From NCBI GenBank assembly GCA_944324795.1, contig CALUXR010000003.1, positions 1-64,000 on the forward strand: a stretch of DNA of 64,000 nt. Direction: 5' to 3'. Origin of the DNA: an uncultured Acholeplasmatales bacterium. Lineage in GTDB: Bacteria > Bacillota_I > Bacilli_A > Acholeplasmatales > Anaeroplasmataceae. The stretch's first letter is position 1. Each line of letters opens with the position of its first letter. Below the pieces are notes generated by a model that was not told the DNA's origin, did no database searches, and saw nothing but the letters and a program-made list of their open reading frames with translations. Positions 4,636-35,645 of this stretch are shown piece after piece. A program made the position numbers and the translations under genes.

Positions 4636-4657
4636 GATTATAAATGAGATGATAAAT

Positions 4658-10956: not shown

Positions 10957-10957
10957 A

Positions 10958-12313: not shown

Positions 12314-12318
12314 TTTTA

Positions 12319-14121: not shown

Positions 14122-14150
14122 TTAATTTTTGATTACTAAAATGATATAAT
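14122..14150 (+). promoter_or_regulatory. Promoter of the ten-gene unit
   Basis: TTAATT (14122-14127), 17-base spacer, TATAAT (14145-14150) preceded by TGA, so also an extended -10. It sits 27 bases before the first ATG and is the only strong promoter I see before 35624. Confidence 0.7.
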
Positions 14151-14177
14151 TAAGAAGTATGTAAGGAGAGAAAAAAT

Positions 14178-16094
14178 ATGGGTTTAAGTTTAGGGATTGA
14201 TTTAGGAAATGATAGTTTGAAATTAACATATATTAGTGATAAAGCAGGTTCAAAATTTAAAGATTTAACTAATGATGGTGAATCATATAGAAGTTTAGTT
14301 AGATTTGATCAAAAAAAGAATATTTGGTATTTTGCAAATGAAATAAATAAAGATAAAAGTGGTAATTATACAACTGTTGTTAAGATTACTAGTTTATTAG
14401 ATTTATTAAATATAAATAATAAAAATTATAAAATTAATAAAGATTATTTTTATAATAAAAAACATTTTCCTAAATTTTATTTTCCATATGATGAAATAGG
14501 GAAAAATTTTAGTTTTAATGATTTAGTTAATAAAGAAATGACATTTACATCACCTTTAACTCCTAGTGAAGTTGTTAGAGATTATTTTATTCATATCGCT
14601 AAAAAATTATTTAATACTATTTATGATAAAGTTAGTAGTATTACGCTTATTGTTGATAAAACATATGGTGATGAATATATTAATTTTTTAACTTCTGTTG
14701 TGGAAAATGCCTTTAATGCTAAAGTTAATTATCAAATAAGTGGAGTTAAAGCAATTTCAATGTTTGCTTATAAGAATGGTTATATAAAAAATGATGAAGC
14801 TATTTTAATTTTTGAAATGTCAGATACTAAAATAGAAGTTACAAAAACAGAAATACTTGATGGTGAAGTAGTAGTTGATGGTAATGCTGGTCACATCAAA
14901 CCATTAGATTTAGGTGGAGAAGATATTGATAAAGCTTTATATGAATATTTATATAATTTAACTTTAAATAGTGAGACCTTAGGGTTCCCATCAAGTGACC
15001 AAGGTGGCCATTTATTTGAGAAAATTTTATTTAGTAAGCAATATCTTTTAATGGAAGATATTAAACTTGTTAAACATTTATTAAGTTTACCACTTGATGG
15101 AAATAGTTTATTTAAAAATGGAGTTCCTATTGAAATTATAAAAGATGTTTATATTCAAAGAAAAATTACTAAACAAGAATTTTTAGATGTTGTTAAAGAT
15201 GAAATTTATAATAAAATTAAAAAATATATGGTTAAAGAAATTACTAGTAAAATTAATTTTGATGTTAAAAATGTTTTTGTTACTGGTGGAATGTCGAAAT
15301 CATATGGTCTTTTAGATTATTTAAAAAAAGAAATAGAAGGAAATTGTAATGTAAAAATAAATATTTTTAAAGAAAATAATATAACATCTAGTGGTGCATG
15401 TTATATTGCTTATAATAATATAAATATTCCAACAACATTGTCTTTATCTTATGGTACATCTGGATATTTAATTAATGAAAATAATCCTAAAGACCCACAT
15501 TATTTAGAATTAGCTATAAAGGGAACTAAATTAAAGAAAGGAAAAAATAAATTTTTAAAAGGATATTCTTTAACTTTTGATAATTTAAATGTTCTTAGCT
15601 CTGCAGGTCATATTGAATATTTTTCAACTCCATTTTCAATTAATGACAAGAATAAAAAAAGAGCTGAAAAAACAAGAACTTTATTAAAATATAATGGTTT
15701 ATATGATGAAGGTAAAGGTTATATTTTTATTGGTGATAAAAATACAAGCAATCCTATAACTAAAAAATATCGTAATAATGCGGTTGAAGCGATGGATTTA
15801 AAAAATGTTACTAAAAAAGAAATTATAAGCTATAGATTTAAATATAATAATAGAGAAATTGTTTTAATGAGGCCAAATTACAATATAGTAATAATTTATA
15901 ATCGTGGTTTTGTTATCGATGAAGATGGTAATGCAGAAATATATATTGAAAATAATAGAGAAGCAAATCACAACAAATTGCTTTTTGTTTACTATAGAGA
16001 TGATAATAGTAAACCATTTGTTATTGATGCAAGTCAAATTGAGTTTTATTTTCCAAAAGAATTTAAAACTGAACTTGATATTAAAAGTAATTAG
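14178..16094 (+). CDS. Hsp70/DnaK-like ATPase, divergent
   Basis: The N-terminus LSLGIDLGNDSLKLTYI is the phosphate-1 loop of the actin/Hsp70 fold. Further family marks are PLDLGGEDIDKALYEYL (compare LGGEDFDN in DnaK), an EDIKLVKHLLS segment at the helix carrying the CE-AK signature, and VFVTGGMSKSYGLLDYL, the adenosine motif. The phosphate-2 site, normally DLGGGT, reads FEMSDTKIEVT, so nucleotide hydrolysis may be weak or absent. The nucleotide-binding domain spans about residues 1-400. The last 230 residues do not resemble a DnaK substrate-binding domain. This is the first gene of the ten-gene unit, 27 bases after an extended -10 promoter, with AAGGAGAG as ribosome binding site. It is not a housekeeping dnaK. 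It may sense or assemble the products of the following genes (inference). Confidence 0.75.
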   Translation: MGLSLGIDLGNDSLKLTYISDKAGSKFKDLTNDGESYRSLVRFDQKKNIWYFANEINKDKSGNYTTVVKITSLLDLLNINNKNYKINKDYFYNKKHFPKFYFPYDEIGKNFSFNDLVNKEMTFTSPLTPSEVVRDYFIHIAKKLFNTIYDKVSSITLIVDKTYGDEYINFLTSVVENAFNAKVNYQISGVKAISMFAYKNGYIKNDEAILIFEMSDTKIEVTKTEILDGEVVVDGNAGHIKPLDLGGEDIDKALYEYLYNLTLNSETLGFPSSDQGGHLFEKILFSKQYLLMEDIKLVKHLLSLPLDGNSLFKNGVPIEIIKDVYIQRKITKQEFLDVVKDEIYNKIKKYMVKEITSKINFDVKNVFVTGGMSKSYGLLDYLKKEIEGNCNVKINIFKENNITSSGACYIAYNNINIPTTLSLSYGTSGYLINENNPKDPHYLELAIKGTKLKKGKNKFLKGYSLTFDNLNVLSSAGHIEYFSTPFSINDKNKKRAEKTRTLLKYNGLYDEGKGYIFIGDKNTSNPITKKYRNNAVEAMDLKNVTKKEIISYRFKYNNREIVLMRPNYNIVIIYNRGFVIDEDGNAEIYIENNREANHNKLLFVYYRDDNSKPFVIDASQIEFYFPKEFKTELDIKSN

Positions 16095-16108
16095 GGAGGT
16101 ATATTGAT

Positions 16109-18976
16109 ATGGCAGAGAAAAAATATCATTTTGAATTTAATACTTTTGCTAAAAGTATAGAAGATCAATATAGTCAAATTGAAAAAGATAAGAAAATATA
16201 TGATAAAGAAATGAAAGAAATGAATGAAGCTGTTTTAGCTTTAGATAGATATGATGACTTTTCAAATAATAAAATTGATTATTTAAAATATAAAAAGACA
16301 ATTTATACTAACGGCTATGGTATTGAAGAAAAAGAAAATATAAATCAAAATGAAATAATTTTAGAACATCAAAGAAAAGCATCACAAGCTTTCTTAAGTG
16401 AACTTAGAGGTTTTGGAATCTTAGCTGATGTTGTTGGTAGTGGTAAAACTTATGAAGCTGGTGTTGTTTTAAGTGAACTTGCTATTAGAGGTAAGGTAGA
16501 ATCTTTGCTTATAATTGTCCCTAATCAAATTATTTTAACATGGAAAAAAGTTTTAGAAGAAGAATTTGGCCTTGGTATAGGAGCACTTACAATAATAAAA
16601 AAACAAACAGAACTAGCAAGTATTTCTACAACTTCTGAAATTAGTGGCATATTTAGAGCTACTAGACCTATTTTAATAACAACAGAAGATTTTGCTAACT
16701 TTGATGATGCTATAGCTAAGTATTTGTTTGATGTAATTGTTGTTGATGAGGCACATCATTTATGTCAAGAAGAAGGAGAATATGCTAATGCGATGTATTT
16801 ACTTAGTCTTTTAATGGATACTAAGAAGAAAGCTCAAAAAACATATTGTCTGCTTTTAACAGCTACACCTCACCAAGGTAATTTAGAAGCTATGTTTAGA
16901 TTGTGGTATTTTGTTCGTTGTAAAGGTGGTAACCCAGCTGATTTTAAATCTACAACAAAACATACTCAAGATTTTTTAAAAGAAAGGGAATATTATAAAA
17001 ACCATGTTTGTCTTGGAGCTACTAATGTAATGGAATTTATTAAAAAAGCTAAAAAAGAAGCATTAGTTTATGGTAATTATAGACAAAAATTTACTGATTT
17101 TTTAAAAAATGAATGTAAAAATAATGAATCAAATTTAGAAATAATATTATCTAGTTTAAGTGAATATAACATTAATCAATATGTAGATGAATTCTTAAAT
17201 TTAGATATAAATGAAAATATAAAAGAAGATATTATGGCAAAAGTAGCTAGTAAATATCATAATGGGCTACTTCGTTCTATAATGATTCGCCAAGCTAATA
17301 AAAGTAACAGTAGATGGCAAACTAAAAAGAAAAATATTGTAAATTATCTTTTTGTTAAAGCAAATATTAGTGGTAATGTTCCTGTTAAAGGCTTAAGAGA
17401 AGATGAAGAAATATTATATGATTATGATTCAACAATGCCAAATATTGATCAAATTATAACTATGCCTGGTGGCAGAAAACTTACGATGAGACAATATTTA
17501 TATGATCGTAAGGGTGAGAGAAGATATAATGATATTTATTCTATTTTTATGTTTGAAAATGTTTATGGTGAAGATGTATTAAAATCTAATATATTTAATA
17601 AAGTAGGGAGTAGAAGATTTTATCAAGAAGAAATTAAAAGATCTCCTGATGCATGTCAAACTTCATTTATACCGATAAAAAACAATATTTTAGAATCAAA
17701 ATTAGAAGTCACAAATAGAATTATCGATTTTGTAAGTCAAGATATTACAAATAGTAGAATTATTATTTTCTTTGATTATGAATATAATAAGATCTTAGAA
17801 AATGAAGGAAAAGAAACTACATATGATTATTTAGAGAAAAATCTAAGAATGAAATATGATAATAGATTAATAATAGCTAAAAGTGGTTCAAAAGATGAAA
17901 TAAGTGAGGCTTTTAATAATAAAGAAGATGCCATATTGATAGTTAAAGATGCTTCTTATACAGAAGGTACAAATCTTCAATCTTGTAGTGTAATTATTAA
18001 TTTCGATGTTACTCCAGATCCTTTAGCTATGGAACAAAGAGTGGGGCGTATTTTTAGGCTTGGTCAAACAAATGACGTTACAATTTATTCACTTGCTGAT
18101 GCGAAAGAATTAGAAGGATATACTTTAATGTATTTTTCAAGAATTGGACTTATGAATAGCGATGATGGTGATGCAGCTATTATAGCTGGATGTAATAGTG
18201 ATAGAATGGTTACTGTTGTTTGTCCTAGTTGTGGTAGTGTTAGATTATATTCAGAAGATGAATACAATGATGCTAAAAAAAGAGGCGAATTATATTGTAC
18301 TAATACGCGTGAATGTATGATTAAAGATAAAAGGGGAACAGAAATGACCGAGATTAGTACATATACATTTAAATGTGATAATGATGATTGTGGTGCTATT
18401 TTAGATCGAAATGGTGAAGCGACAAGTTATATGTGTGCCGCTGTTACAAGTTCAGGTAGAGGTTATTTACGTAATGGCTCTGGTGAAAAAGGAAATAGAA
18501 TATTTTATTGTTCTAAAATATGTGTAATAAGTCATTGTAAGAGATTTACAGAAGGAGCTTTAAAAGACAAATGCCCGGCTTTAAAACTTTATAATGAAAA
18601 TAAAGACATTGGTATTACTGCTTTACAAAAAGAATGCAATACTTGCGCATTAAGAGGTAATTTATGTTTTGAAAAGTGCCATATTGATACAGGTCCTGAA
18701 GCAATTAAAGATTGTATAAATTGCACACAAAATCCAAAGATAAGTAGAGAATGTAACCCAAGTATTATCAATTTTGATGAAAAGTGGCATACTAAATGCC
18801 CTTCTTGTAATAAAGGCACTTTAAAACCTGTTATAGCTAAAACATTTGTTACATATATTAGAAATTTATGGTCTTATAATAAAGATGGTGGGGCAAGTTT
18901 TTGTTCACGTTTATTAAATGAAGCAGAAAAAGTTGCCCAAATTGAAGAAATCTTGAATCTAGATGGGGTGAAGTAG
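16109..18976 (+). CDS. SNF2-family helicase with C-terminal Cys clusters
   Basis: This is a superfamily 2 ATPase of the SNF2/RapA group, which translocate on double-stranded nucleic acid. Seen in order: Walker A DVVGSGKT (107-114), IVPNQIILTWKKVL (motif Ia region), DEAH (213-216), LLTATPHQGN (motif III), and late in the core EGTNLQSCSVIINFD and QRVGRIFRLGQ (motifs V-VI, about 620-652). From about residue 695 there are many CxxC pairs (CPSCGS, CDNDDCG, CNTCALRGNLC, CINC, CPSCNKG) that should hold several zinc ions. The fusion of a SNF2 motor to a long Cys-rich tail is unusual; DrmD of DISARM is another SNF2 defence helicase but lacks this layout as far as I recall. GGGAGG precedes the ATG. The next gene carries a similar Cys arrangement. 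Confidence 0.85.
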   Translation: MAEKKYHFEFNTFAKSIEDQYSQIEKDKKIYDKEMKEMNEAVLALDRYDDFSNNKIDYLKYKKTIYTNGYGIEEKENINQNEIILEHQRKASQAFLSELRGFGILADVVGSGKTYEAGVVLSELAIRGKVESLLIIVPNQIILTWKKVLEEEFGLGIGALTIIKKQTELASISTTSEISGIFRATRPILITTEDFANFDDAIAKYLFDVIVVDEAHHLCQEEGEYANAMYLLSLLMDTKKKAQKTYCLLLTATPHQGNLEAMFRLWYFVRCKGGNPADFKSTTKHTQDFLKEREYYKNHVCLGATNVMEFIKKAKKEALVYGNYRQKFTDFLKNECKNNESNLEIILSSLSEYNINQYVDEFLNLDINENIKEDIMAKVASKYHNGLLRSIMIRQANKSNSRWQTKKKNIVNYLFVKANISGNVPVKGLREDEEILYDYDSTMPNIDQIITMPGGRKLTMRQYLYDRKGERRYNDIYSIFMFENVYGEDVLKSNIFNKVGSRRFYQEEIKRSPDACQTSFIPIKNNILESKLEVTNRIIDFVSQDITNSRIIIFFDYEYNKILENEGKETTYDYLEKNLRMKYDNRLIIAKSGSKDEISEAFNNKEDAILIVKDASYTEGTNLQSCSVIINFDVTPDPLAMEQRVGRIFRLGQTNDVTIYSLADAKELEGYTLMYFSRIGLMNSDDGDAAIIAGCNSDRMVTVVCPSCGSVRLYSEDEYNDAKKRGELYCTNTRECMIKDKRGTEMTEISTYTFKCDNDDCGAILDRNGEATSYMCAAVTSSGRGYLRNGSGEKGNRIFYCSKICVISHCKRFTEGALKDKCPALKLYNENKDIGITALQKECNTCALRGNLCFEKCHIDTGPEAIKDCINCTQNPKISRECNPSIINFDEKWHTKCPSCNKGTLKPVIAKTFVTYIRNLWSYNKDGGASFCSRLLNEAEKVAQIEEILNLDGVK

Positions 18977-18979
18977 ACT

Positions 18980-20650
18980 ATGAAAAATGAAATTATAATC
19001 GGTAAAGAATTTGAAGCACAATTTAATAGTCTTAAAACCTTAATACCTTTTCTAGCGAAAAACGGCTTATTAAAAGGAGAATTAGCTGGTGTATATTATG
19101 ATAGTTCAACTGATGTAATAGATACATTATCAACCTCATTTAGATTTGACAGTTCGATTTCTTCCGTTTCTTATGATGAAGCTAAAATAGGACCTGATGG
19201 GGCTAACTGGTTTTCTAATCTACGTAATAAAGAAGAATCTACTGCAAATTATATTGCTAGGTGGCGTGATTTGATTGAACAAGTTAGTAATGTTTATCAT
19301 AAAAATTATGCATTATTTGAGTTTGATCAAAAAGACAATAGATTAAATCAAGCAACTGAATATAATAATATAATTAAAAATGTAATGATAAATTTATTCA
19401 AGGGCAATTATTCATCAGAAATGCTTAATGGTGAGAATGCTACATCTGATATTTATGCTTTAAGCATAAGGATGGAAGTTACAGGTGGTAGTGGTGAAGC
19501 TATACCTATTATTGGGTCTATTTATTTAAAGAAAAATCAATTTGGCTCATTTAATCCCATTTCAAGTAATGATGCTAAATTGATTGATGAATCTTTTAAA
19601 AATGCTGATTTAAGTCAAGCAAAGAAAATTGATAATAGTGATTCATCACAAATAATTAGAGAATCATCAAGTGCTTTAGAAAGCTTAATTAGAGAAAATA
19701 AACATGATAAGAAAGGATTATCTTTTGAAGACTGCTTGCTTTATGCATCTAAAGAAGATGATGAAGAAAACATTAAAAAATTAGTTGAACGTGGGGCAGA
19801 ACAAGATGTTACGTTAACTGTTAATAATCTTAAAATTTTAAGTATTTCTCATTTTAAATGGATTGATGCAATCTATATTATTAAATATATTGGTAAATCA
19901 GTATTAAGTTTTACATTTGGTCTTAATAATAGTATTACTGTTAAATGTTTAGGATGCGGAGAAACATTAATATCAAATAATCAAATTGTCTATAATGGTT
20001 TAAATATCGATCCGACTAAATCAGATTTATGTCCTGAAAGTCATAATAATAAAGATTTTGAAAAGGATCTTTTTAAAGTGGCTACAAAATTTAATTCTGA
20101 ACATTTGATTAATAAAAGATGTGAATATTATTTTCTTAATGGAATGTGTGAAAGATTTGTTTGTAAAACAAATTTAATTGTTGATAATGATTATTCAGTA
20201 TGTAAAAACTGTCCTTATCCTGAAATGATTCAAAATGTTGATGGAGAAAGAGTATTAACTAAAAATTTAATTTTTGCAAAGGATAGATTAAATTTAATTA
20301 AATATGTTAAAGAAGATGGAAACCCTTCAACTTTTATTTGCCCTTGTTGTGGCCAAACCTATAGTTTAAGCTATAAAGAAAATGATATGAATGTTTGTAA
20401 AGATTGTTCATTTATTTTTGAACTTAATTTAATTCAAGAAGAAGAAAAGAAAAAATATAAGAAATTATATCGTAAATATCATAAATGCTTACCTTTAGGA
20501 GTTAGATTCTTAAATTTATTTAATAAAAAATATTGTTTTGAAAAAGATAATTTAGTTTGGTTTAAATTGAAAAATACTATATATACATTAGATGTATTAA
20601 ATGTTAATAATCATGGATATATTGTAAAACCAAGAAAATATAAAATTTAA
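18980..20650 (+). CDS. Zinc-ribbon protein, partner of the SNF2 helicase
   Basis: I do not recognise the first 330 residues. A short segment (FEDCLLYASKEDDEENIKKLVERGAEQDVTLTVNN, partly) suggests an ankyrin-like helix pair around residues 255-285. The C-terminal part holds three Cys groups: CLGCGE, then a cluster of the form C-x8-C-x4-C-x12-C-x2-C (CEYYFLNGMC onward), and CPCCGQ with CKDC. The middle cluster has nearly the same spacing as one in the tail of the SNF2 helicase, which suggests a shared fold or common ancestry. The gene starts 4 bases after the helicase stop with GGGGTG as ribosome binding site. The last 70 residues are basic and hydrophobic. Likely cytoplasmic. Function unknown. 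Confidence 0.65.
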   Translation: MKNEIIIGKEFEAQFNSLKTLIPFLAKNGLLKGELAGVYYDSSTDVIDTLSTSFRFDSSISSVSYDEAKIGPDGANWFSNLRNKEESTANYIARWRDLIEQVSNVYHKNYALFEFDQKDNRLNQATEYNNIIKNVMINLFKGNYSSEMLNGENATSDIYALSIRMEVTGGSGEAIPIIGSIYLKKNQFGSFNPISSNDAKLIDESFKNADLSQAKKIDNSDSSQIIRESSSALESLIRENKHDKKGLSFEDCLLYASKEDDEENIKKLVERGAEQDVTLTVNNLKILSISHFKWIDAIYIIKYIGKSVLSFTFGLNNSITVKCLGCGETLISNNQIVYNGLNIDPTKSDLCPESHNNKDFEKDLFKVATKFNSEHLINKRCEYYFLNGMCERFVCKTNLIVDNDYSVCKNCPYPEMIQNVDGERVLTKNLIFAKDRLNLIKYVKEDGNPSTFICPCCGQTYSLSYKENDMNVCKDCSFIFELNLIQEEEKKKYKKLYRKYHKCLPLGVRFLNLFNKKYCFEKDNLVWFKLKNTIYTLDVLNVNNHGYIVKPRKYKI

Positions 20651-20663
20651 GGAGGTGTTATAA

Positions 20664-23600
20664 GTGAGTCGTAATAAAGTTAAAATTAATTTTTCTAGTA
20701 ATAAATTTTTCTTATTATTAACATGTTTATTTGCTGTTGTAGTAGATACATATATGGTTTATACATTAGTTATTAGAAACTTATATAATAATTATTTATA
20801 TGCTTTTTTAGGATTGGATTTAATATTTATTATTACAGTTTTGATATCTAATTATAGATTTAAATATACTAGAATACATGTTTTATTATTTAGCATAATA
20901 GAAGTGTTATTAGTAGGTTCTTTAATTTATTTTGCTATGTTTTATAGTGAAAAAATTATATTCACCAAAGGAAGTGTTTTATGGTTTTCGGTAACACATT
21001 TAATGATGATGGTCTCAGTTATATTTTCATCATTATTTGCGGCTAAAGTTAGAAAGATTGCTTTCATTACTATTTTAGCATTTCTATTTTGTGGTGCATT
21101 TAGTGGTGCTTATATCGATTTTGTTCATCGTTTAGGTATTTTTGGACAACATAATGATATAAATTATGGAACATTAGTTTATGAATATGATGAAGATAGT
21201 AATGGTTATATGGCTGTTGATATTTTAGAAAAAGATGCAAATGCTGTATATGTGCCTGCTGTGTTTAATGATAAACTTGTTACTTCATTTGATGCCACAT
21301 TATTTGAAACATATGATTTAGTTGAATTTAAAATAGATGATTATAGATTAAGATTTACAAATTTAAATGATAATATTCAAATAAATAAAGAATTAAAATT
21401 TCTATTTGAAGGTAATATTTTAGACATTAATGATTTTAGAAAGTATTTATATGATTTAGATAGTGATAATAGTTTCTTTCTTGCAAACAGAATTGAACCA
21501 ATATTATATGATGAAGGAAATAATTATATTACAATTAAATATACTAAAGAAGAATATGATACTTTAGATGGTGAAATAATTCCTATTTTAGAAGCAAAAA
21601 AAGGTACACCTATTGATGAAGTTTATAATAGCATAGAGAGGGATTTTGACTATGTCTTAAATCGATTTGATGATACTCAATATTCTTTAGAATATGCATT
21701 TAATAATGAAAAATTAGATGGTAAAATATTTGTAGGTTTAAAAGATGAAGATGGTAATTTAATTGAAAACTTCGATAAATCTATAAATGGAGCTACAATG
21801 GAATTGTTAGAGGTCAAAAAAATTAATTTTTTAGATAGCAATGATACTGTTTATAAATTACCTAATGATTTTGATGATGTTTATTATACAACAATTGATA
21901 AAGCTAATGAATTAATTGAAAACTATCCTACAAGAGAAGGATTTTCTTTAAGTTTTAGTTATGCAGCAGATAATTCAAAAACATATGTTAGTTTTACTGA
22001 TTTAACTGAAGTTATAAATAATACTAATGCTAAAACATATAATATAAAGCCAACTTGGAAATTAAATGCTCCAACTAATTTAAATATAAATGTGCCAAAT
22101 AAAACTCTATATTATGGTGATAGTGTTAATATTAGAGCAAATGCTACAAGTCCAAATTCTAATTTTAATTTATCTTATAGCTATAGTGGTAATGTTACAA
22201 GCAACAGTAACATCTTAAATATTAACAAAGTTAAACCAGAAAATAGTGGGGAATATACATTAATAGTTACTGCTTATAATGGTAATATTTCCTCATTATC
22301 TAGTACTTTAACTTATAAATTTAATTTAAATATAAATAAAAAACCATTACATTTTAATTTAGAAAATAATTTAAATTTAACATATAATGCCTATGATCAA
22401 TATATTTCAATTAGTCCTAATGAAGAAGACATAATAGATGGTGATGTTATTGATTTTACAGCTAAAGTAATTAAAGGTTCAACTAACCAATTATTTACAA
22501 ACTCTGACATTAAGATTAAAAATGCTGGTGAATATGAGGTTGAAGTATCTTTAAATGAATTATCTGAATATTATTTTGTTATAAATGATTTAGATAATAT
22601 AATTATTGATAAAGCTGAAATTAATTTAACTTGGGAAGATAAAGAATACATTTATGATGGTTTAAAACAAAGTCCAACTGCTAGTATTAATGGTAATCTT
22701 GCAAGTGATGTAATAAATTTAAATTATATTACAAATGATAGTTCTATTAATGCCGGAAAGCATAGCGTTACAGCTTCATTAGATAACAATAGTGCTATTA
22801 ATTATTTAATAACAAATCCTAATAAAGATTATGAAATAGAAAAAAGAGAAATAAGTATTAATTATGATACTACAAGTTCATTTATTTATAATAGTGAACT
22901 TCAAAAACCTAATATAAGTAGTATAAATAATATTGTTGAAAAAGATAATGAAGATATTTTAAATGAAATATATTTCAATTATAATAATCAACCTATTAAT
23001 GTTGGTAATTATACAATTAATGCTAATTTAAATAATAATAATTATAGCCTTGTTGGTGATAATTCTAAAGAATTTACAATTACTCCATATATTATTAATG
23101 ATGCTACATTTGCAGATGAAACATTTATTTATAATGGTGAAGAACAATACCCTAAAATTATAACATTTGCTGCTGGTTATCCCGATGAAGAAAGTACTTT
23201 ATTAAATGATCTTATATATGATTATGATGATGCAATAAATGTAGGTAGTAAGATTGTTAAAGCTAGATTTAGTGATGATTCAAACTATAAATTTAATAAT
23301 GAAGAAGTTAGTAAGTCATATGAAATAGGAAAAAGAGAAATTACATTAGCCTTATATCAAGATGAAATTTATAATTCTAATCCTATGAAGCCTGAAATTA
23401 GTGGAATTGCTAATGTTGTTTCAAAAGATTATGATTTAGTTTATAACAATTTAAATGATCAAATTATTTCAACTTATACAAATGTAGGTAATTATAAATA
23501 TGAATTTAATTTAAATGAATTAACAAATTATTGTTTTAATTTTGGAAGCAATACAATTCAATTAGATTTTAATATTTTACAAAAAACGTTATATATCGAT

Positions 23601-26137: not shown

Positions 26138-27548
26138 TAAGAATAGGTTTGAACAAATTTATAATATAATAACTAGTAATGAAGTTAAAGCTTTAAAAAA
26201 TGAGAAAGAAAAATTTAAATTTTTAAATATTTATGAACAAACTGTTGATGAAACAAACTTACAAATTATTGATTTAGGCTTTGAAAATTTAAGTAAAATG
26301 ATTGTAGAAGTTGTTAATTATAATTATAAATCTAGATTTGTAGATGATATTAGAGATACAGTTAAATTAATATTAGAATTACAAAATGCTAATTCTAAGA
26401 AAGCTTTAAAAATTAAGGACATATTTGAAAAAGAAAGTGGGGATATTATGAAACTAGATTTTGATATTGTAGTACCTTTAAAAGAATATTTAAATTTAAT
26501 TATTATAAATATTGAAGGATTAAATAATAATCAAAATGTTGTTATTGTTGATGGTTTAAAAGAAATTAAAGCTAATTTAGATAATATATTAGATCGCCAA
26601 TCTGAACAAGCTAAGAAATATGCTGAACATATTAGAGATGAAGTTTTTAATGTTTATAAAATGTTAAGTGCTGGTTATCTTTCTAAAAAAGATATCAATT
26701 TAATTGATGTTTTAAAAGAAGAAGTTAATAATTGGGTAAATATTAATAAAATCAACAAACCATTTAAATTTAAGAATTATGAATTAATAACTAAAGAATA
26801 TTTAGAACCAATTGTAAATAAGAGTAAAGCTGATAATGTTAGAGATTTATTAAATCAATTCTTTAAAATGACAGAGAAGTTTATTAGTAAAGATTTAAAT
26901 GGTAATTTATATGATGAAATTGAACAAGTTTCAAGAGACATAGCAAATTTAATGAGTCAAGGTAAAATGATTCATCGACAAATTAAAAATAAAGAAATTG
27001 GTGCAGAAAATACATTCCGTTTAGATTCAATACAAGCTCAAATCCTTATTAAAGAAACTAAATTAAATGAATTAAAAAGTACACTTAAATTTAATGCTAA
27101 TGAACAAAAGTTTTATGCTGAATTAAATTCTAAATTAAGTTATATTAAAACTGCTTATAATATATATCAAAATAGTGATGAAGCCTTAGCGATCGTTTTT
27201 GGTGATAATATAAGCAATACAGTTATAAATCTTACAAATTTCTTTAAAGGTGATAGTGTTGATAAGATGGAAATATTAACTATCATTACTAGAGCACAAA
27301 AAGCTGTAAATATTAAGATAGAACAAAATGATGAGTTATTAAAATCTTTAATGATCGCTAATACAAAAATTAATCAAGATTCTGAAGATAATGAAATTAA
27401 AGAAGAAGAAAAAAATAAAGATAAAAATCCTCTTAGTGGCTATGAAATGTTTGATTCTGATGAAGATGAAGAAATAAAAATTGAAGAAACAAAAGTTGAA
27501 GATGTCAATGATGTTAATACTTTAATTTTACATAAAGAAGATAGATAA
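26127..27548 (+). CDS. Coiled-coil protein of unknown function
   Basis: This protein of 473 aa is predicted almost wholly helical with long amphipathic stretches and no enzyme motif. There are no membrane segments or Cys clusters. The last 65 residues are strongly acidic and low in complexity (EEEKNKDKNP, SDEDEEIKIEETKVED). A centre segment VSRDIANLMSQGKMIHRQI and a later one with LDSIQAQILIKETKLNEL look like coiled coils. The start overlaps the end of the preceding gene and only a weak AGGT lies upstream, so coupling of translation is likely. The acidic tail may be a docking site for another operon member (inference). Confidence 0.6.
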   Translation: MMIDKNRFEQIYNIITSNEVKALKNEKEKFKFLNIYEQTVDETNLQIIDLGFENLSKMIVEVVNYNYKSRFVDDIRDTVKLILELQNANSKKALKIKDIFEKESGDIMKLDFDIVVPLKEYLNLIIINIEGLNNNQNVVIVDGLKEIKANLDNILDRQSEQAKKYAEHIRDEVFNVYKMLSAGYLSKKDINLIDVLKEEVNNWVNINKINKPFKFKNYELITKEYLEPIVNKSKADNVRDLLNQFFKMTEKFISKDLNGNLYDEIEQVSRDIANLMSQGKMIHRQIKNKEIGAENTFRLDSIQAQILIKETKLNELKSTLKFNANEQKFYAELNSKLSYIKTAYNIYQNSDEALAIVFGDNISNTVINLTNFFKGDSVDKMEILTIITRAQKAVNIKIEQNDELLKSLMIANTKINQDSEDNEIKEEEKNKDKNPLSGYEMFDSDEDEEIKIEETKVEDVNDVNTLILHKEDR

Positions 27549-27549
27549 G

Positions 27550-29475
27550 ATGTTAGTTGTTGATAAATTAAATTTAATTAATACTAAATATATTAAGATT
27601 TGTGATGTTGAAGTATTAAAAAAATATTATGATGAATTAACTAAAAATATAACTTCTCAAGGAATTAGTGGTTTAATTGATGAAAATTTAAAAGCTGATG
27701 CTTATGCTTTATCTTATAGACTTGGTTTAAAGATTTTATCAATTGATTATTTTGAAACTTTTAAAGAATCTTATTATAATGATTTAATTAATTTTATTGA
27801 TGAAGTTATTAAAAGAAGTAAAGATTATCCAAATACATTAATAATAGCTAATAATTTATTAAATATAAGTAATAAAGTTTATAATATTATTAAAGATATT
27901 AATCATTTATTAGATAAAGTAATAAAAGATAATGTTGTTACTACAAATAATGAAGATGATTTAATTAAAGTTAAAAATGAATTATTAAAAATTAATAGTG
28001 ATTTTAATATAACTAATCCTTTTATTAATATAGAATATATCAATATTAATGATAATATTAATAATTATTTAAAAAAGAATATTGATTTAGTAGATGAAAG
28101 CATTATTAAATTAAGTAAAGAATTAGAAAATAATTTAATTAAAAAATATTTAATCCCTTTAGATAAAACTTATCTTAAATATGAATATTATCAAGGTGAA
28201 GTTATTAAAAATAATACTGATTATTATAATTATGTTATATATACACCTTTTAAAGATGAATTAGATTTATTTTTAACTCATTATGAAAAAACAATTAATT
28301 TAGTTAATTATCTTGATTTAAATCAAATTAAAAAAGAAGATTTAAAAGATTTATTTAATGTAATAATTAAAAGGAGATTAAGCTTTTGTTATTTAAATTT
28401 AGATTTAATAAATGATAATAATTCATTAGATATTATTTATAATTCATTAAATGAATTAGCATTAAATAAAGTAATATCATATATTTATAGTTCTACAAGC
28501 AATAGAAATATATATGATAATTTTAGTGATTATATTAATAAAAATAATTTAAATAATAGTTTAAGTTATGCATATTTAAGTATGCCAAATTATGAAAATT
28601 TTTGTCAAATTTTAAATAGTAATAATTTAGAAAACGAAAAAATTAAAGACTTGGCTTTTTGTGGATTTATTGGTTTAAATAGGATTTTAATTGATGCTTC
28701 TATTGGTGAAAATTGGTTTAATAACGCCCTTATTTTGTCTAAAAAAAGAACTGAAGCTGCTAAAAGTTTTTTAGAAAATATTGCTTTTCAAGATTTATTA
28801 ATTGATAGTAAATGGGGAGATTTTAAAAAGAATAGTTTTGATATTTTTGATGATAATCCTAATTATGATGATTTTGATTATGATAAACTACATGACTTAA
28901 ATCCTAAAAATATTAAAAAAATATTTAATTCTAATATTAATATATTTGAAAAATGTCATTTAGCCGTATCTTATGCTTTACTTCATCGCGATGATAAGTC
29001 AACTTGGTCATTAATTTCAAAAGAAGAAAAATTTGAGCGAGTAATAGATGCGACATATCTTGTTTATCAATTGTTAAATTTAAAATTTTTACCTAAAGTA
29101 GAATTTAAAGAAATTGTTGATAATAGTCCTACAACACTTGGTTGTTGTTATGATGGTGGAAAAAGAATAGTTTATAAAAATAAATATGTTGAAGAAGATG
29201 TACTTGGTATATTTGGGACAATTTGTCATGAATCATATCACGCCTTACAACATTTATTAAAAGATAATTTACAAAATAATAGATTTAATTCTTGGTACTT
29301 TCATAATTTAGGTATAACAGAAGGTCAAGTTAAAGAATATATTGAAATTGATAAATATTATACTACATCAGATTTTAATCTTTATTATTCACACGCTACT
29401 GAATGGGGTGCTAGAGCTTTTGCTAATGATTGTTTAAAGGCTATTGATAGGTCAAATAATATTGATTTTGAATAG
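27550..29475 (+). CDS. Large protein with C-terminal HExxH metallopeptidase-like domain
   Basis: Most of the 641 residues are helical and unfamiliar. The C-terminal 120 residues form a zincin-like site: GTICHESYHALQHLL, with HESYH at residues 560-564, and about 54 residues on YYSHATEWGARAFAN, where Glu 618 is placed to be the third zinc ligand. The HExxHAxQ and HxxEWxAR pair is reminiscent of metallopeptidase domains found in phage-borne and polymorphic toxins. There is no signal peptide, so it should be cytoplasmic. It follows the coiled-coil gene by one base. A protease effector or a processing peptidase for the surface protein are both conceivable; neither is shown. Confidence 0.65.
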   Translation: MLVVDKLNLINTKYIKICDVEVLKKYYDELTKNITSQGISGLIDENLKADAYALSYRLGLKILSIDYFETFKESYYNDLINFIDEVIKRSKDYPNTLIIANNLLNISNKVYNIIKDINHLLDKVIKDNVVTTNNEDDLIKVKNELLKINSDFNITNPFINIEYININDNINNYLKKNIDLVDESIIKLSKELENNLIKKYLIPLDKTYLKYEYYQGEVIKNNTDYYNYVIYTPFKDELDLFLTHYEKTINLVNYLDLNQIKKEDLKDLFNVIIKRRLSFCYLNLDLINDNNSLDIIYNSLNELALNKVISYIYSSTSNRNIYDNFSDYINKNNLNNSLSYAYLSMPNYENFCQILNSNNLENEKIKDLAFCGFIGLNRILIDASIGENWFNNALILSKKRTEAAKSFLENIAFQDLLIDSKWGDFKKNSFDIFDDNPNYDDFDYDKLHDLNPKNIKKIFNSNINIFEKCHLAVSYALLHRDDKSTWSLISKEEKFERVIDATYLVYQLLNLKFLPKVEFKEIVDNSPTTLGCCYDGGKRIVYKNKYVEEDVLGIFGTICHESYHALQHLLKDNLQNNRFNSWYFHNLGITEGQVKEYIEIDKYYTTSDFNLYYSHATEWGARAFANDCLKAIDRSNNIDFE

Positions 29476-29487
29476 GAGGGATGCAAA

Positions 29488-32400
29488 ATGGAATTTGAGA
29501 AATTGATTGATAAGGAAATAAATTCTTTATTACATATTGATGATATTGAAAAAAATGTATTAATAGATATTAATGCTAATATTTCATTACCATATTTAAA
29601 TATAAAATCAGTTAATGATTATCCACTTATTAATTTTATATTCGATGTGATTAAACAAAGATATGGGAAAATAGCTAATACTATTTTGCTTGGTAGTGCG
29701 ACAAACCCACAAGAACAAATAGTTGGTAATGACCTACAAACCTTTGATTGGGATATTAATGGTGAAAAGAATACAACAGTTTTAAATAAATTTATTAATG
29801 ATATATATAAAACTATATTAAATAGAGGACACAATCCGTTATTTTTAAGTATTGGTTCGTTAAAATGGAAAGTGTCAGCAGGAGATAAAGTTAAAGATGT
29901 TAGAACACCATTTTTAATAGTTCCTGTAAAATTAGTCCGTGGATTATCACAAATAAACCCAATAAGTATTGAGTTTGTCCCAGATGATATCTATATTAAT
30001 CCTTGTCTTTTGTTAAAATTAGAGAACACTTATGGAAGAGGAATAGTTGATGATTTACTATTAAAGCTAGGTTTAAATAATTTAGGTGAAGTTAATCTTA
30101 ATGATTTAAATTTTGATTTAATTGATAAAGCTAATAATTATTTTAATAATTTAGATTCTAGTGCTAATACTTTATTTAAATTTGATATGAATAAAATATA
30201 TATAGCTGCCTTTAAATCTAGTGATATTTGTATGTATCAAGATTTAAAAAGAAATAGAATAAAAATACTAAATAATAGATTAGTTAAAAATGTATATGGT
30301 CAAGAAAAATATATTCCTAATTTAATAGATAAATTTAATTATTTACCAATTTTACCAAATGATTTAACTCAACAAAACATTATGATTAATGCATTAGAAG
30401 GTGAATCTTTAATTATTAAAGGTCCTCCTGGAACAGGTAAAACATTAACGATTGCTAATTTAATTGCTAATCTTATTGCTAATAAGAAAAAGGTTTTATT
30501 TTCTTCAACAAAAGTAGCGGCCTTAAATGAAGTTTATAAAAAATTACCACCTGAATTAAGAATGTTTGTTTTATTATTAGAATTTGAAAAAGAAGAAGAA
30601 GCTGCTAATCAAAATCCTAATAAAATTAAAAAAGATTTAAAATTAATATTAGATAATAAAGATAAATATGTAGCTAAAACCAATCTTATAGGTGAATTAA
30701 ATTCTTTAAGAATTAGTAATAATAAAGAAGTAAATAAAATAAAAGAGTATGAAGATTTCATGTTTAATAATAAAAAAATATTTTCTAATAATTTATATGA
30801 AGCTCTATTAATTTTAGGTAAAACTAATATATATATTCCTTTAAATTATGAAAATGTTTTAAGTATTGATTTATTAAAATATAATGAATTATTTAATAAA
30901 ATTAAAGATTTAAAAACTAAGGCTTTAAGATTAATTATTAATGGAAGTATTAAAAAATCATTATTTTATAATGCCTCTTTAAAAGAAGATTTAAATGTTA
31001 CATTTAAAATTATTAATAATATTATTTCTATTTTAGAAAAATATAATAATTTAAATAATTTAAGAATCCCTGAATTTATCTATTTAGCAAAAAATTTAGA
31101 AGAAATAAAGAAGTTGAAAAGTTTAATTAAAAATGAATTATTTAATAAATTAGAAAACTTCAATTATGAATTTAAATATTTAGATATAATAAAAGAAAAT
31201 ACACCTAAAATCGATTATATAACATTAGATATTACGATTAAAGACTTTATATTAATTAAAGAATATCGTTCTTTATTTAAAATTAAATATGATAATGACA
31301 CAATTTTAAGAGTTAATTATTTAAATAAAAAGATTAAAAATTTAAAAGAAGTAATTGATTTATTATTTAATCAAATTTATGGTTTTTATGGCACTAATTT
31401 AAAAACTGAATTCCTTGATAATTTAAATAAACAATATATGTATTTATTAGATTATAAAGAGGATGATAGTCTTAAATTATTCGATTTTAAAGCTAAAAAA
31501 GCTTATAATATGTTAAAAAATAGTGATTTAATTGGTGAACTTAAATTTGGTGATGTGATTAAAGTAGTTAATATTTATGATAGATTAGTAAAATCACAAA
31601 ATGAATTAAATGTTGAAATTATTAATTTAAATAAAGAGTTAGGTCAAAAAGTAGTCGATAAAGAAGGAAATTTAGATTTAAAATATATTAATATTATTGA
31701 TAATGTTAGTAATTTAAATATTGATGTTTTAGTTTATAGTGATCAAGTTTTAAAATATTATGATGAAGTATATAATTTTGTTAATTATTTAAAATTAGAT
31801 GAAAATATTAAAATTAGTGATTTATTTGATATTTATAATGATTATTTAAAACATCAAGAATTAGTTGATATCGTTAAAGAATATATTAATATAGATGAAT
31901 TTAATAAAGAAACATTAGATAAAAATATTATGTTCTTAGTAAGACATCAATCAATAAATCTTGATTTAAATGTTAATGATAAAGAAATTGATGATTTGAT
32001 TAATTGTTATAATGAATTACCTAAACTTGGTATAAATGATTATTATTTAAATTCAACTATTAAAGAATTTATTAATTTAAAATCATATGATAAATCTTTA
32101 ATTAACGATTATAAAGAATATGAAAAATATAAATTAGAATTAGCTAATTTCTTAATTCAATTTGAAGATGGTATTTATGATTTTAATGATTTAGATTTAA
32201 TATATGAACATAGTATTTATTATGAAGCTGTTAATGAATATCTTAAAGATTATGATGAATATAAATTAGGCGTAAGAAATATTATTGAAGATTCTTTAAA
32301 TATTGTTTCTAATAATGAAAAGAAAGAATTAGCATTAAATAATTTAATAATTGAATCTTTATTATATCAAGATATTAATAAAGAAGAAGAAATATATCGT

Positions 32401-33753
32401 TTCCTAGAAGGTAAAGGCAGTGTTGCAAATTTAAGATTATTATTTAAAGAACATAGTGAAGCAATATTAAAATTAAAGAAAACGATTATTGCTAGTCCAT
32501 CTACTATTTCTTTATTATTTAGAGATGAACATTATGATGACTTTGATGTTTTAATTATTGATGAAGCAAGCCAAGTTGAAATGGTTGAATTATTGCCAGG
32601 TTTATTTAGGTCAAAACAAGTTATAATTGTTGGCGATGAATATCAATTGCCGCCAATTAAACAATTAGTTGTTACTCAAGATGTTGAATCAGTAATTAGT
32701 TTAGCTTTAAAAAAATCTTTATTTAAGATTTATAGTTTAAAATGTCATTACAGAAGTGAAACAGAATCATTAATTGCTTATTCTAGAGATAGATATTATA
32801 CAGAAATGTTAACTTTCCCATCACCTGAACCTTTTGGCAATCATTTAGGATTAAAGGATGTATATTTAGAAGAAGCCAATTTAGATGGTGGAGAAAATAT
32901 TTCTGAAGCTAAAACGGTAGTATCATTAATAAAGAAACATTTTGATGATTTTTATGATGAAACAAAAAGATGTTTAGACGAAGAACATTCACTTGGTATT
33001 ATCACATTTGGTGAAGCACAATCTAAATTAATAGAAAAATTGATTTATCAAGATGAAGAATTAAAAACAAAAATTACAGAAACGTTAGCAAATTATAAAG
33101 ATGTATCAGAAAAAATCTTCTTTATTAAAACAATAAGAAATGTTCAAGGTTTTGAAATAGCTCACTTAATTATTTCTTTTACATATGGTAGAAGTAAGAG
33201 TGGGGAAATTAACAATAAATTCTATAATTTAGGAACTAAAAAGTTGGGTGAATGTATGTTTAATGTTGCGGTAACTAGAGCTCAAAAAGAAGTTATTGCC
33301 GTACATTCAATTAGATCATATGAATTAAAGACTGAAAATTCGCAAAATATTGCCGATTATTTAGAATCATGTGAACGTTTTGAAAAATTTAAAGTTATAG
33401 ATACAAACATTTATGGTTATGAAGCTAATAATGGCTTTGAATATAATATTTTAAATGAACTTATAAAAGCTGGTGTTTCTAAACAAAATGTATTATTTAA
33501 TTATGGTGCTACAGGTGGTTCTATTCGTATTCCTCTTGTTATATTAGATAGAACTCATAGTAAAGTTAAATGTGGTTTATGGTTAGAAAAACAAACAAAT
33601 ATCTATTATTTAGATTATAATATGCATTATTATGATATCTTAGTTGATAGAGGATTTAAATTATATAAAGTTTATTTAGAAGATTATATGTTTAATAAAG
33701 AAGCAACATTAGCTAAAATATTATCATTCATTAAAGAAAGTGGAGGTTTATAA
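29488..33753 (+). CDS. Superfamily 1 helicase with DUF4011-like N-terminus and long insertion
   Basis: The N-terminal region (FLSIGSLKWKV ... RTPFLIVPVKLVRG ... IYINPCLLLKLENTYG) matches the pattern of DUF4011 domains on large Upf1/Dna2-like helicases. The motor follows: Walker A GPPGTGKT (312-319) with KVLFSSTKVAALNEV, then some 700 residues of coiled-coil-rich insertion, Walker B IIDEASQVE (D1025), GDEYQLPPIK (motif III), NVQGFEIAHLIISFTYG (motif V) and FNVAVTRAQKEV (motif VI). The last 110 residues resemble a Vsr/MTES_1575-type nuclease fold (GFEYNILNELI ... KCGLWLEKQTNIYYLD ... GFKLYKVYLEDY), but the usual acidic residues are only partly kept. AGGAGGG lies 9 bases before the ATG. Such helicases occur in several defence systems. 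Confidence 0.8.
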   Translation: MEFEKLIDKEINSLLHIDDIEKNVLIDINANISLPYLNIKSVNDYPLINFIFDVIKQRYGKIANTILLGSATNPQEQIVGNDLQTFDWDINGEKNTTVLNKFINDIYKTILNRGHNPLFLSIGSLKWKVSAGDKVKDVRTPFLIVPVKLVRGLSQINPISIEFVPDDIYINPCLLLKLENTYGRGIVDDLLLKLGLNNLGEVNLNDLNFDLIDKANNYFNNLDSSANTLFKFDMNKIYIAAFKSSDICMYQDLKRNRIKILNNRLVKNVYGQEKYIPNLIDKFNYLPILPNDLTQQNIMINALEGESLIIKGPPGTGKTLTIANLIANLIANKKKVLFSSTKVAALNEVYKKLPPELRMFVLLLEFEKEEEAANQNPNKIKKDLKLILDNKDKYVAKTNLIGELNSLRISNNKEVNKIKEYEDFMFNNKKIFSNNLYEALLILGKTNIYIPLNYENVLSIDLLKYNELFNKIKDLKTKALRLIINGSIKKSLFYNASLKEDLNVTFKIINNIISILEKYNNLNNLRIPEFIYLAKNLEEIKKLKSLIKNELFNKLENFNYEFKYLDIIKENTPKIDYITLDITIKDFILIKEYRSLFKIKYDNDTILRVNYLNKKIKNLKEVIDLLFNQIYGFYGTNLKTEFLDNLNKQYMYLLDYKEDDSLKLFDFKAKKAYNMLKNSDLIGELKFGDVIKVVNIYDRLVKSQNELNVEIINLNKELGQKVVDKEGNLDLKYINIIDNVSNLNIDVLVYSDQVLKYYDEVYNFVNYLKLDENIKISDLFDIYNDYLKHQELVDIVKEYINIDEFNKETLDKNIMFLVRHQSINLDLNVNDKEIDDLINCYNELPKLGINDYYLNSTIKEFINLKSYDKSLINDYKEYEKYKLELANFLIQFEDGIYDFNDLDLIYEHSIYYEAVNEYLKDYDEYKLGVRNIIEDSLNIVSNNEKKELALNNLIIESLLYQDINKEEEIYRFLEGKGSVANLRLLFKEHSEAILKLKKTIIASPSTISLLFRDEHYDDFDVLIIDEASQVEMVELLPGLFRSKQVIIVGDEYQLPPIKQLVVTQDVESVISLALKKSLFKIYSLKCHYRSETESLIAYSRDRYYTEMLTFPSPEPFGNHLGLKDVYLEEANLDGGENISEAKTVVSLIKKHFDDFYDETKRCLDEEHSLGIITFGEAQSKLIEKLIYQDEELKTKITETLANYKDVSEKIFFIKTIRNVQGFEIAHLIISFTYGRSKSGEINNKFYNLGTKKLGECMFNVAVTRAQKEVIAVHSIRSYELKTENSQNIADYLESCERFEKFKVIDTNIYGYEANNGFEYNILNELIKAGVSKQNVLFNYGATGGSIRIPLVILDRTHSKVKCGLWLEKQTNIYYLDYNMHYYDILVDRGFKLYKVYLEDYMFNKEATLAKILSFIKESGGL

Positions 33754-33756
33754 AAA

Positions 33757-34434
33757 ATGCCTGATTTAAAAGATTTAGATACAGAAGTTAAAACAAAAAT
33801 GGCAGAAATTGAAGAGGAATTAGCAAGAGTAAAACAAGAAGAAGCTATTAAAAAATTTCGATTAAATTATAATAAGAAATTAGAAAAAATAGCTGATAAA
33901 GGCGCTAGCTATTTAGAAAAATACGGTGAAGAAGATTATAGAACACAAATATATGTTGAGTTATATGATGCAATCACAAGTTATGGGGAAATGATCGATA
34001 TATTAGAAGGTTCTAATGATTTAATGAGCTGTATGGATGATATCATTAAATTTATGGATCAAGCCTTAAATTTCAATTTAAATACATTACAAAGTTGGAA
34101 TAGAGAAAAATATGGTTTCTTTAAAAAGTGGAAAATTAGAAGAGAATTTAGAAAGAGTTTAAAAAATAATAGAAATAGAATGCAAGTTTCTTTACAATTT
34201 ATGACTAATAATATGGTAATGTTAAAGAGTTTTGTTAAAGAAATGAAAAAACAATTAACTAAATTTAAATTAAAACAAAATAAAGGTAAAAAAGGTGGGA
34301 CTCAAGCATCAAATACCACTCTTGATATCTTTAGAAATAGATTAGCAGCTAAAAGTGGCGAAAATATAGCTGATGGTAGTATAGCCGCATCAGGAACATC
34401 AGGTGGCTCTAATAATATAGATGATATATTATAG
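33757..34434 (+). CDS. Charged helical protein paired with the AAA ATPase
   Basis: At 225 aa this protein is nearly all helix: an acidic N-terminal coiled coil (KMAEIEEELARVKQEEAIKK), a middle strongly basic part (FFKKWKIRREFRKSLKNNRN) and a flexible C-terminal tail rich in Gly, Ser and Ala. A short predicted helix, TLDIFRNRLAAKSG, stands out in the tail. Size, the all-helical make-up, the tail helix and its place directly before a Vps4-like ATPase recall ESCRT-III/CdvB proteins, whose tail motifs bind the MIT domain of Vps4. I see no clear sequence match to Snf7, PspA or Vipp1, so this is only a hypothesis. GGAGG precedes the ATG. Confidence 0.55.
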   Translation: MPDLKDLDTEVKTKMAEIEEELARVKQEEAIKKFRLNYNKKLEKIADKGASYLEKYGEEDYRTQIYVELYDAITSYGEMIDILEGSNDLMSCMDDIIKFMDQALNFNLNTLQSWNREKYGFFKKWKIRREFRKSLKNNRNRMQVSLQFMTNNMVMLKSFVKEMKKQLTKFKLKQNKGKKGGTQASNTTLDIFRNRLAAKSGENIADGSIAASGTSGGSNNIDDIL

Positions 34435-34442
34435 GTAATTTT

Positions 34443-35624
34443 ATGGCTAAAATTGAAAAAGCAAATAATAGTTTAATTGCTGATGATAATTTATCTCTTG
34501 AAGATTTAAAAAAAGAATATTTAAGAGTATTTCAAGAAATTAAACAACTTTTAGTTAAAAATCCAGATATGGATAAAATGAGTAATGAGACTAAAAGTAA
34601 ATTAAAAGTTAAATATATTGAAATAGCTAATTATGCTAGAAAAATATCATTAAGGACTTCTGATTTAAATGAAAAAGAAGAATATCAAAAAAATTATACA
34701 AAATTAATAGCTAGAGCCCAAGATTTTGGTTCTACTATTAAAGGTCGTATTCCAAAGACTACCTTAGATGATGTTAAAGGGCTGGATAATGTAAAAAAGA
34801 TAGTTAAAAGTTTTATTTATTTATTACAAAATCCGCAAATTAGAGAATATTATCATATTGATGGTGGTCTTGGGATGATGCTATACGGCGCACCTGGTAC
34901 TGGTAAATCAATGTTTGCTGAAGCTGTAGCTAATGCCTTACAACTCCCTTTATTTACAGTTACACCAGCTGATATTTTTAAATCATATGTTGGTGAATCT
35001 GAACAAGCTGTAAGACAATTATTTGCCGAAATTGATGCAAATCAAGACGGGGCTATATTATTTGTTGATGAATGTGAATCAATATTTAGTAAAAGAACAA
35101 ACGAAACTAAAGACTATAAAGCTGCAGTAACAAGTGAATTTTTACAAAGATTAAATGGTGAAGGGGTTGATGGTTCTAAAAGAATTCTTATAGCAGCTAC
35201 TAATAGGCCATCAATTATTGATGCTGCATATCTTCGCTATAAAAGATTTTCTCATATCGTCCATGTTGGACCACCAGATGCTGAAGCTAAAAAAGCTATT
35301 ATAACAAGCAAATTAAAGAATATACCTTTAAGTGGTATAACAATAGACGATATAGTAGCTATGTCAGAAATTAATAGTTTAAATGGTGGATTATATAATT
35401 TAAAAGGAAATAATAAACCAAATTATTATAGTGGGGCGGATATAAGTGGAATAGTAGAAGAAGCTTGTAGATATGCTTGTGAAATACTTGAAGCTAAAAG
35501 AGAAACAAATCCAATACCATTAACAAGAGAAATGTTTGAAAAAGCATTTGCTAAAATTAAACCAAGTATAAGTCAAGATGTTCTTGATGAATATGAAAAC
35601 TTTAAAACTAAAATTGAAGTATAG
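34443..35624 (+). CDS. Vps4/katanin-like AAA ATPase
   Basis: This is a single-ring AAA ATPase. The core begins TTLDDVKGLDNVKKIVKSF, like the start of meiotic-clade AAA domains. Walker A is GAPGTGKS (149-156), the pore loop is near KSYVGESEQAV, Walker B is ILFVDECES (D209, E210), sensor 1 is AATNRP and the arginine-finger region follows. Before it lies a helical bundle of about 80 residues (LEDLKKEYLRVFQEIKQLL onward) in the position of the MIT domain of Vps4, spastin and katanin. These enzymes unfold or disassemble polymers. It is the last gene of the unit: the terminator stem begins within its stop codon. FtsH and proteasomal ATPases share the core but lack this N-terminus; FtsH would carry a protease domain, absent here. 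Confidence 0.8.
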   Translation: MAKIEKANNSLIADDNLSLEDLKKEYLRVFQEIKQLLVKNPDMDKMSNETKSKLKVKYIEIANYARKISLRTSDLNEKEEYQKNYTKLIARAQDFGSTIKGRIPKTTLDDVKGLDNVKKIVKSFIYLLQNPQIREYYHIDGGLGMMLYGAPGTGKSMFAEAVANALQLPLFTVTPADIFKSYVGESEQAVRQLFAEIDANQDGAILFVDECESIFSKRTNETKDYKAAVTSEFLQRLNGEGVDGSKRILIAATNRPSIIDAAYLRYKRFSHIVHVGPPDAEAKKAIITSKLKNIPLSGITIDDIVAMSEINSLNGGLYNLKGNNKPNYYSGADISGIVEEACRYACEILEAKRETNPIPLTREMFEKAFAKIKPSISQDVLDEYENFKTKIEV

Positions 35625-35645
35625 AGGCTTAGGCCTCTTTTCTTA
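35623..35645 (+). terminator. Terminator closing the ten-gene unit
   Basis: AGAGGC (35623-35628), loop TTAG, GCCTCT (35633-35638) followed by a T-rich run. The stem starts inside the TAG stop codon of the AAA ATPase gene. Confidence 0.85.

Follow-up and report, generated by a model that had tools for sequence, protein, structure and literature searches.

A co-inherited ten-gene operon with an eight-gene core and an optional two-gene module in gut Bacillota

A conserved core of eight genes (g1–g6, g9 and g10) and an optional g7–g8 module form one co-inherited machine, carried as an accessory cassette by gut Bacillota. We describe it from a window, the whole stretch of 64,000 nucleotides analysed here, which lies on a 103-kb contig of a 1.70 Mb, AT-rich genome. 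Ten intact ORFs on the + strand (14178–35624) encode, from g1 to g10, proteins of 638, 955, 556, 1459, 365, 473, 641, 1421, 225 and 393 aa. They are separated by 14, 3, 13, −4, −11, 1, 12, 3 and 8 bases, and most junctions carry Shine–Dalgarno-like sequences. The features of the operon are as follows.

14142–14150, + strand: promoter before g1, an extended −10 TGATATAAT with a poor −35 (from the sequence and its recurrence in homologous loci)
14178–16094, + strand: g1, Hsp70/actin-like ATPase of 638 aa (weak HSP70/DnaK matches; homologues in 61 loci)
16109–18976, + strand: g2, SNF2-family ATPase with a Cys-rich C-terminal domain (Pfam SNF2 and Helicase_C)
18980–20650, + strand: g3, zinc-ribbon protein with about a dozen invariant Cys (family alignment)
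20664–25043, + strand: g4, surface protein with five N-terminal TM helices, then MBG/Ig-like repeats (MBG_3, E=2.8e-6)
25040–26137, + strand: g5, N-terminal CxxC...CxxC zinc finger and Sel1/TPR-like helical repeats (family alignment, Sel1 matches)
26127–27548, + strand: g6, coiled-coil helical protein without a family (from the sequence)
27550–29475, + strand: g7, optional, helical protein with a C-terminal HExxH metallopeptidase-like motif (27-member alignment)
29488–33753, + strand: g8, optional, giant SF1 helicase of the DUF4011/DUF3320 (Hhe, ProA) superfamily with a degenerate REase_MTES_1575 domain (profile matches, alignment)
33757–34434, + strand: g9, charged helical bundle (alignment; AF2 model, pLDDT 71)
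34443–35624, + strand: g10, AAA ATPase of the classic type, Vps4_C present, N-terminal domain helical (AAA, 1.1e-31; Vps4_C, 23.3 bits against a cut-off of 21.3)
35623–35645, + strand: intrinsic terminator after g10, a 6-bp GC-rich hairpin (35623–35638) followed by TTTCTT

An earlier note on this DNA had described one promoter and one terminator around ten same-strand genes, with start/stop overlaps. We confirmed this layout: the extended −10 (14142–14150) and the hairpin (35623–35638) bound the genes, no gap exceeds 14 bases, and two junctions overlap, by 4 and by 11 bases. The TGATATAAT element was not among the full sigma-70 sites of a consensus scan; a TGnTATAAT-type extended −10 upstream of g1 was common to many homologous loci. 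Within the operon, no internal + strand terminator-like sites were found above chance expectation. The domain calls of the note were also upheld for g1 (Hsp70/actin-like, weakly), g2 (SNF2), g4 (MBG repeats and five TM helices), g8 (SF1 helicase) and g10 (AAA with Vps4_C).

We ran a g2 profile on a collection of GTDB-species contigs, annotated the resulting loci with the family profiles, and found the gene set, identically ordered, in 58 loci from named MAGs. The hosts were nearly all gut MAGs of Clostridia (Borkfalkia, Christensenellaceae, Alloclostridium, Limadaptatus), mainly of Christensenellales type, with a few Bacilli. In total, about 65 independent loci were obtained from two classes, mostly from uncultured gut bacteria. 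Where the next family gene was visible, g2 came after g1 in 59 loci, g3 after g2 in 58 and g4 after g3 in 58 (median gaps of 12, 3 and 10 bases); for later gene pairs, second stretches of loci already counted enter the tally. The sole deviating successor of g1 was due to one g1 split into two ORFs. The g10 gene was present in 29 of 30 genomes chosen for g2. A search with g1 through the taxonomic order to which the window belongs gave matches in 3 of 160 genomes; one of them belongs to another genus and has g1-g2-g3-g4 in order at 26–42% identity. Divergent relatives of g2 still kept the order g1-g2-g3-g4-g5. The exact order kept in about 65 loci argues for one functional unit, as the earlier note had supposed; the set was neither absent elsewhere nor dispersed among unrelated neighbours.

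Two forms of the operon were distinguished. The full form (~26 loci, window included) carries g7 and g8 between g6 and g9, the compact form (~15 loci) lacks both, and no locus with a complete g6–g9 interval had only one of them; MAG incompleteness may affect these presence/absence counts. A Bacilli genome (L016) has g8 upstream of g1 instead. The compact loci fall into separate clades of the g2 tree, in which long branches make it unsure where precisely the window's g2 belongs, and this scatter indicates that the g7–g8 pair behaves as an exchangeable module. In L067 and L153–L154, g1 to g5 are present and the later genes are not recognisable; these are perhaps decaying loci or a further variant.

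The g1 family retains the DLGxxxxK motif, a FDMGEEDISV-type phosphate-2 segment and the SGG motifs. All SNF2 motifs of g2 are intact, and its C-terminal domain holds many conserved Cys (median identity 43%, 59 members). Its nearest named families are DrmD, BrxH, DpdE and RapA, with scores far below the family cut-offs. The best conserved protein of the set is g10 (median identity 58%), with intact Walker and sensor motifs. Together, the nearest named relatives of g2, g8 and g10 include DrmD/BrxH, Hhe/ProA and IetA.

For the restriction-like domain of g8, we compared 25 members in an alignment with Hhe and three proteins annotated as DUF4011/DUF3320. In all 25, R(I/M)P stands in place of RID and a WCE-type motif in place of ECDG. 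Since the D and E of the REase_MTES_1575 motif are lost in every aligned member, g8 is predicted not to cut, and the domain looks catalytically dead. Active restriction by g8 was therefore rejected for the canonical motif, whose D and E are replaced.

Several of the operon families are covered by no Pfam, NCBIfam or PADLOC model. The g3 protein has similarity to a TFS4-like zinc ribbon, and its AF2 model (pLDDT 79) gave no significant match in a PDB fold search. The Sel1 matches came from 3 members in a mixed g1/g3/g5/g6/g7 set. In g7, the HExxH...E residues H560, E561, H564 and E618 are conserved (27-member alignment); the gene is doubled in tandem in L105, L106 and L128. For g9, AF2 predicts a helical hairpin of 52+54 residues, a basic third helix, a short helix, a disordered linker and a C-terminal tail, which carries a conserved IDDI(L/V) motif. 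None of 41 g9 members matched Snf7 or PspA in sequence, and all fold matches were insignificant, the best being BAR-type membrane-bending proteins; homology of g9 to ESCRT-III was thus not supported. Nor did profile similarity support a common origin of the Cys regions of g2 and g3, or of g6 and g9.

The only membrane protein among g1–g10 is g4, for which five TM helices were found in 44 of 54 complete homologues. The positive-inside pattern of the window sequence puts its repeat region (~1300 residues) outside the cell. It is also the fastest evolving of the ten genes, and within the protein the residues after the last TM helix mostly diverge more quickly than the TM segment itself. Two variant loci have a multi-helix membrane protein, CvpA-like by eye, directly before g1 (L016:15998–16717 and L073:5394–6221), which is a possible extra membrane part.

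Purifying selection acts on all ten genes. For close pairs, we obtained dN/dS values of 0.02–0.10, and up to 0.16, for most core genes, 0.14–0.21 for g7 and g8, and 0.16–0.31 for g4. These low values bear out the selection at which the earlier note had hinted.

The operon is flanked by genes for an M13 peptidase (7901–9790) and a GDSL lipase (37422–38870). In two congeners that lack the operon, these genes adjoin each other: the distance is 68 bp in G119 and 0.6 kb in G121, where one small ORF lies between them. Because of this adjacency, we consider the operon to be part of an insertion.

9791–37421, no strand: 27.6-kb insertion relative to two congeners (flank genes neighbours in G121 and G119)

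Besides the operon, the insertion contains three lipoprotein/GLUG genes and a broken AAA_14/DUF4143 gene. The former are tightly spaced and lie directly upstream (9913–14004); the latter lies downstream (35736–37079) and has an in-frame stop at 36156–36158. Further left, a lipoprotein-like gene (4649–5808) is split over two frames and is probably decayed, and 6069–7358 encodes a 429-aa protein with a weak Phage_Tail_Tip match (E=1e-4). The decay of neighbours on both sides, as formerly described, thus stood for the downstream ATPase gene and for the broken gene near 4649–5808; the genes directly upstream look intact.

The distribution of the operon is patchy. It was present in 15 of 46 genomes of one Clostridia family, in 18 of 248 of one order, in 2 of 391 of a class sample and in 2 of 395 of a sample of the window's own class. 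Identity of the window's g2 is higher with a Clostridia homologue (49%) than with one from its own family (39%), which suggests horizontal transfer. No g1 match was found in plasmids or phages, and no g2 orthologue in viral contigs, where a single match had 24% identity over 223 residues; a mobile-element, phage or plasmid origin was rejected on these grounds. We looked for a defence-island context among 134 flanking genes at 49 loci. It was not found: the flanks are mostly housekeeping and only a handful of genes are defence-like, so that the earlier note's question about defence islands was answered in the negative.

Our preferred reading, put forward tentatively, is that the operon encodes a conflict machine (anti-phage or anti-mobile-element), anchored in the membrane and driven by ATP, with g7–g8 as an optional add-on. 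The fast-evolving g4 would be a receptor displayed outside and the anchor of the assembly, and the Hsp70-like g1 and the Vps4-type g10 would act as assembly and disassembly motors. We infer from adjacency and the conserved tail only that g9 is a client of g10, which would pull on the C-terminal IDDI tail of this helical protein. The scaffold and zinc adaptors may be g6, g5 and g3. The SNF2 ATPase g2, the module that g1, g10 and g9 would serve, might strip incoming nucleic acid or translocate along it. Where present, g7–g8 could supply a protease and a DNA-binding helicase with a non-cutting nuclease fold, and may widen the range.

Since few flanking genes are defence-like and the REase domain of g8 looks dead, we infer defence from what g2, g8 and g10 are related to and from a distribution that is patchy and inserted; both fit defence against mobile elements. 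No nuclease or toxin besides the degenerate g8 domain was found among g1–g10. Our confidence in defence stays somewhat below an even chance because there is no island context, no nuclease and no fast turnover. The strong purifying selection, unlike the fast turnover of many defence genes, counts against it, and so does RapA, which is not a defence protein, among the SNF2 similarities of g2. The lack of g1 matches in plasmids and phages, and of a g2 orthologue in viral contigs, weighs on the same side. Of the membrane-linked defence or conflict reading in the earlier note, the membrane link stood (g4, five TM helices); the defence part was weakened by the housekeeping flanks and the degenerate REase-like domain.

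The absence of a nuclease and the strong purifying selection would also suit the main rival, a cell-envelope machine that builds, displays or recycles the adhesin g4, or remodels membranes in an ESCRT-like manner via g9 and g10, in gut colonisation or vesicle formation. With its 5 TM anchor, g4 is a typical gut surface protein, and g9 is a long helical hairpin with a tail motif, encoded beside a Vps4_C AAA ATPase, its weak best fold matches being the BAR-type proteins. However, neither the 41 g9 members nor g10 gave a Snf7, PspA or MIT match, g9 had no significant fold match, and the SNF2 translocase, the DUF4011 helicase and the two zinc-ribbon proteins are left unexplained. We regard this reading as rather unlikely.

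More doubtful still is a regulated cytoplasmic proteostasis or transcription-stress complex, in which g2 would act like RapA on RNA polymerase, g1 and g10 as chaperones and g4 as an envelope-stress sensor. The similarity of g2 to RapA-type SNF2 proteins (E=6.9e-28), the TFS4-like zinc ribbon of g3 and the presence of Hsp70-like and CDC48-like ATPases are consistent with it. A patchy presence and an inserted site would, however, be odd for a general housekeeping role, g4 evolves fast, and the optional DUF4011 helicase is unexplained.

It is also improbable, slightly more so than the stress complex, that a Vps4-type membrane-remodelling module of g9 and g10 is coupled physically to the nucleic-acid translocases and the surface receptor. 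The result would be an envelope organelle by which DNA or RNA is moved, blocked or packaged at the membrane, say to close off sites of phage entry or to fill vesicles. That the genes are unrelated and lie together by chance, or only as a regional cluster in one low-GC genome, has a negligible probability: nothing is left for this view after the neighbourhood search, the composition is merely AT-rich, and the exact gene order in about 65 loci of two classes refutes it.

Many gut bacteria keep this 21.5-kb operon gene for gene, a machine that is large, unexplored and at home in a common habitat. With compact and full forms, an empty site in congeners and a defined core, its function is directly testable. 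If the conflict reading is correct, the operon adds a membrane-anchored, chaperone-driven type of defence; if it belongs to envelope biology, it adds a partner system of a Vps4-type ATPase in bacteria.

The earlier note had matched the operon to no known system, and we found no match in the libraries searched and no corresponding gene set in a search of open-licence papers. DISARM is alike in the DrmD-type SNF2 of g2 (127.9 bits against a cut-off of 610), but is defined by DrmA, DrmB, DrmC and a methyltransferase, and no other Drm protein or methyltransferase occurs in g1–g10. The likeness to BREX is confined to the BrxH-like similarity of g2, the defining PglZ, BrxC and PglX being missing. 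DpdE of Dpd is among the SNF2 families nearest to g2; the other Dpd components are absent here. Compared with the SNF2 helicases of these three systems, the Cys-rich C-terminus is peculiar to g2. Zorya, defined by the ZorA/ZorB motor pair together with a ZorD or ZorE effector, gave a weak ZorD match to g2 (1.2e-7) and none for ZorA or ZorB.

Hhe and ProA share with g8 a DUF4011-like N-terminus, an SF1 helicase and the REase_MTES_1575 fold. However, g8 stays below their full-length cut-offs (219 bits against 2000 and 320 against 1500), lacks the catalytic RID ... ECDG residues and the long C-terminal part, and belongs to a ten-gene operon, whereas Hhe/ProA is a single gene. The g10 protein resembles the AAA protein IetA (92 bits against a cut-off of 510). 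IetS of IetAS is subtilisin-like; here there is no subtilase, and the metallopeptidase-like g7 and eight further genes are found instead. The pairing of an AAA protein with a protease (here g7) could be common to both.

Of the ESCRT-III/Vps4 (Cdv) systems, g10 has the Vps4_C oligomerisation domain (23.3 bits against a gathering score of 21.3) and matches the CdvC model (E=1.6e-37); its N-terminal domain looks helical and fits the MIT domain in length, without an MIT match. Cdv and bacterial Vps4-like operons (PMC11237479) likewise place a Vps4_C AAA ATPase beside a charged helical protein that has a motif at its C-terminus. No Snf7/PspA partner was found here (41 g9 members), and the partners are helicases and an Hsp70 instead.

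Hsp70 GTPase-centric conflict systems (GAP1-N2; Kaur et al. 2020, PMC7159879), found in Firmicutes operons (PMC7159879), likewise combine Hsp70-family proteins, extracellular-type beta-sandwich repeats, TPR and zinc ribbons. Their defining components are DO-GTPase and GAP1, whereas no GTPase family was matched by the ten proteins; there is no GrpE and no variable effector, and SNF2, SF1 helicase and Vps4-type AAA proteins are encoded instead. CoCoNuTs (PMC11090510), which target nucleic acids, also have Hsp70-like, coiled-coil and zinc-ribbon proteins encoded in one operon; their McrB GTPase and McrC nuclease had no match in g1–g10. Because the operon lacks at least one tested defining feature of each known system considered (among them DISARM, BREX, Zorya, Hhe/ProA, IetAS, Cdv and Hsp70-GTPase), we conclude that it is a new system built of parts from known superfamilies.
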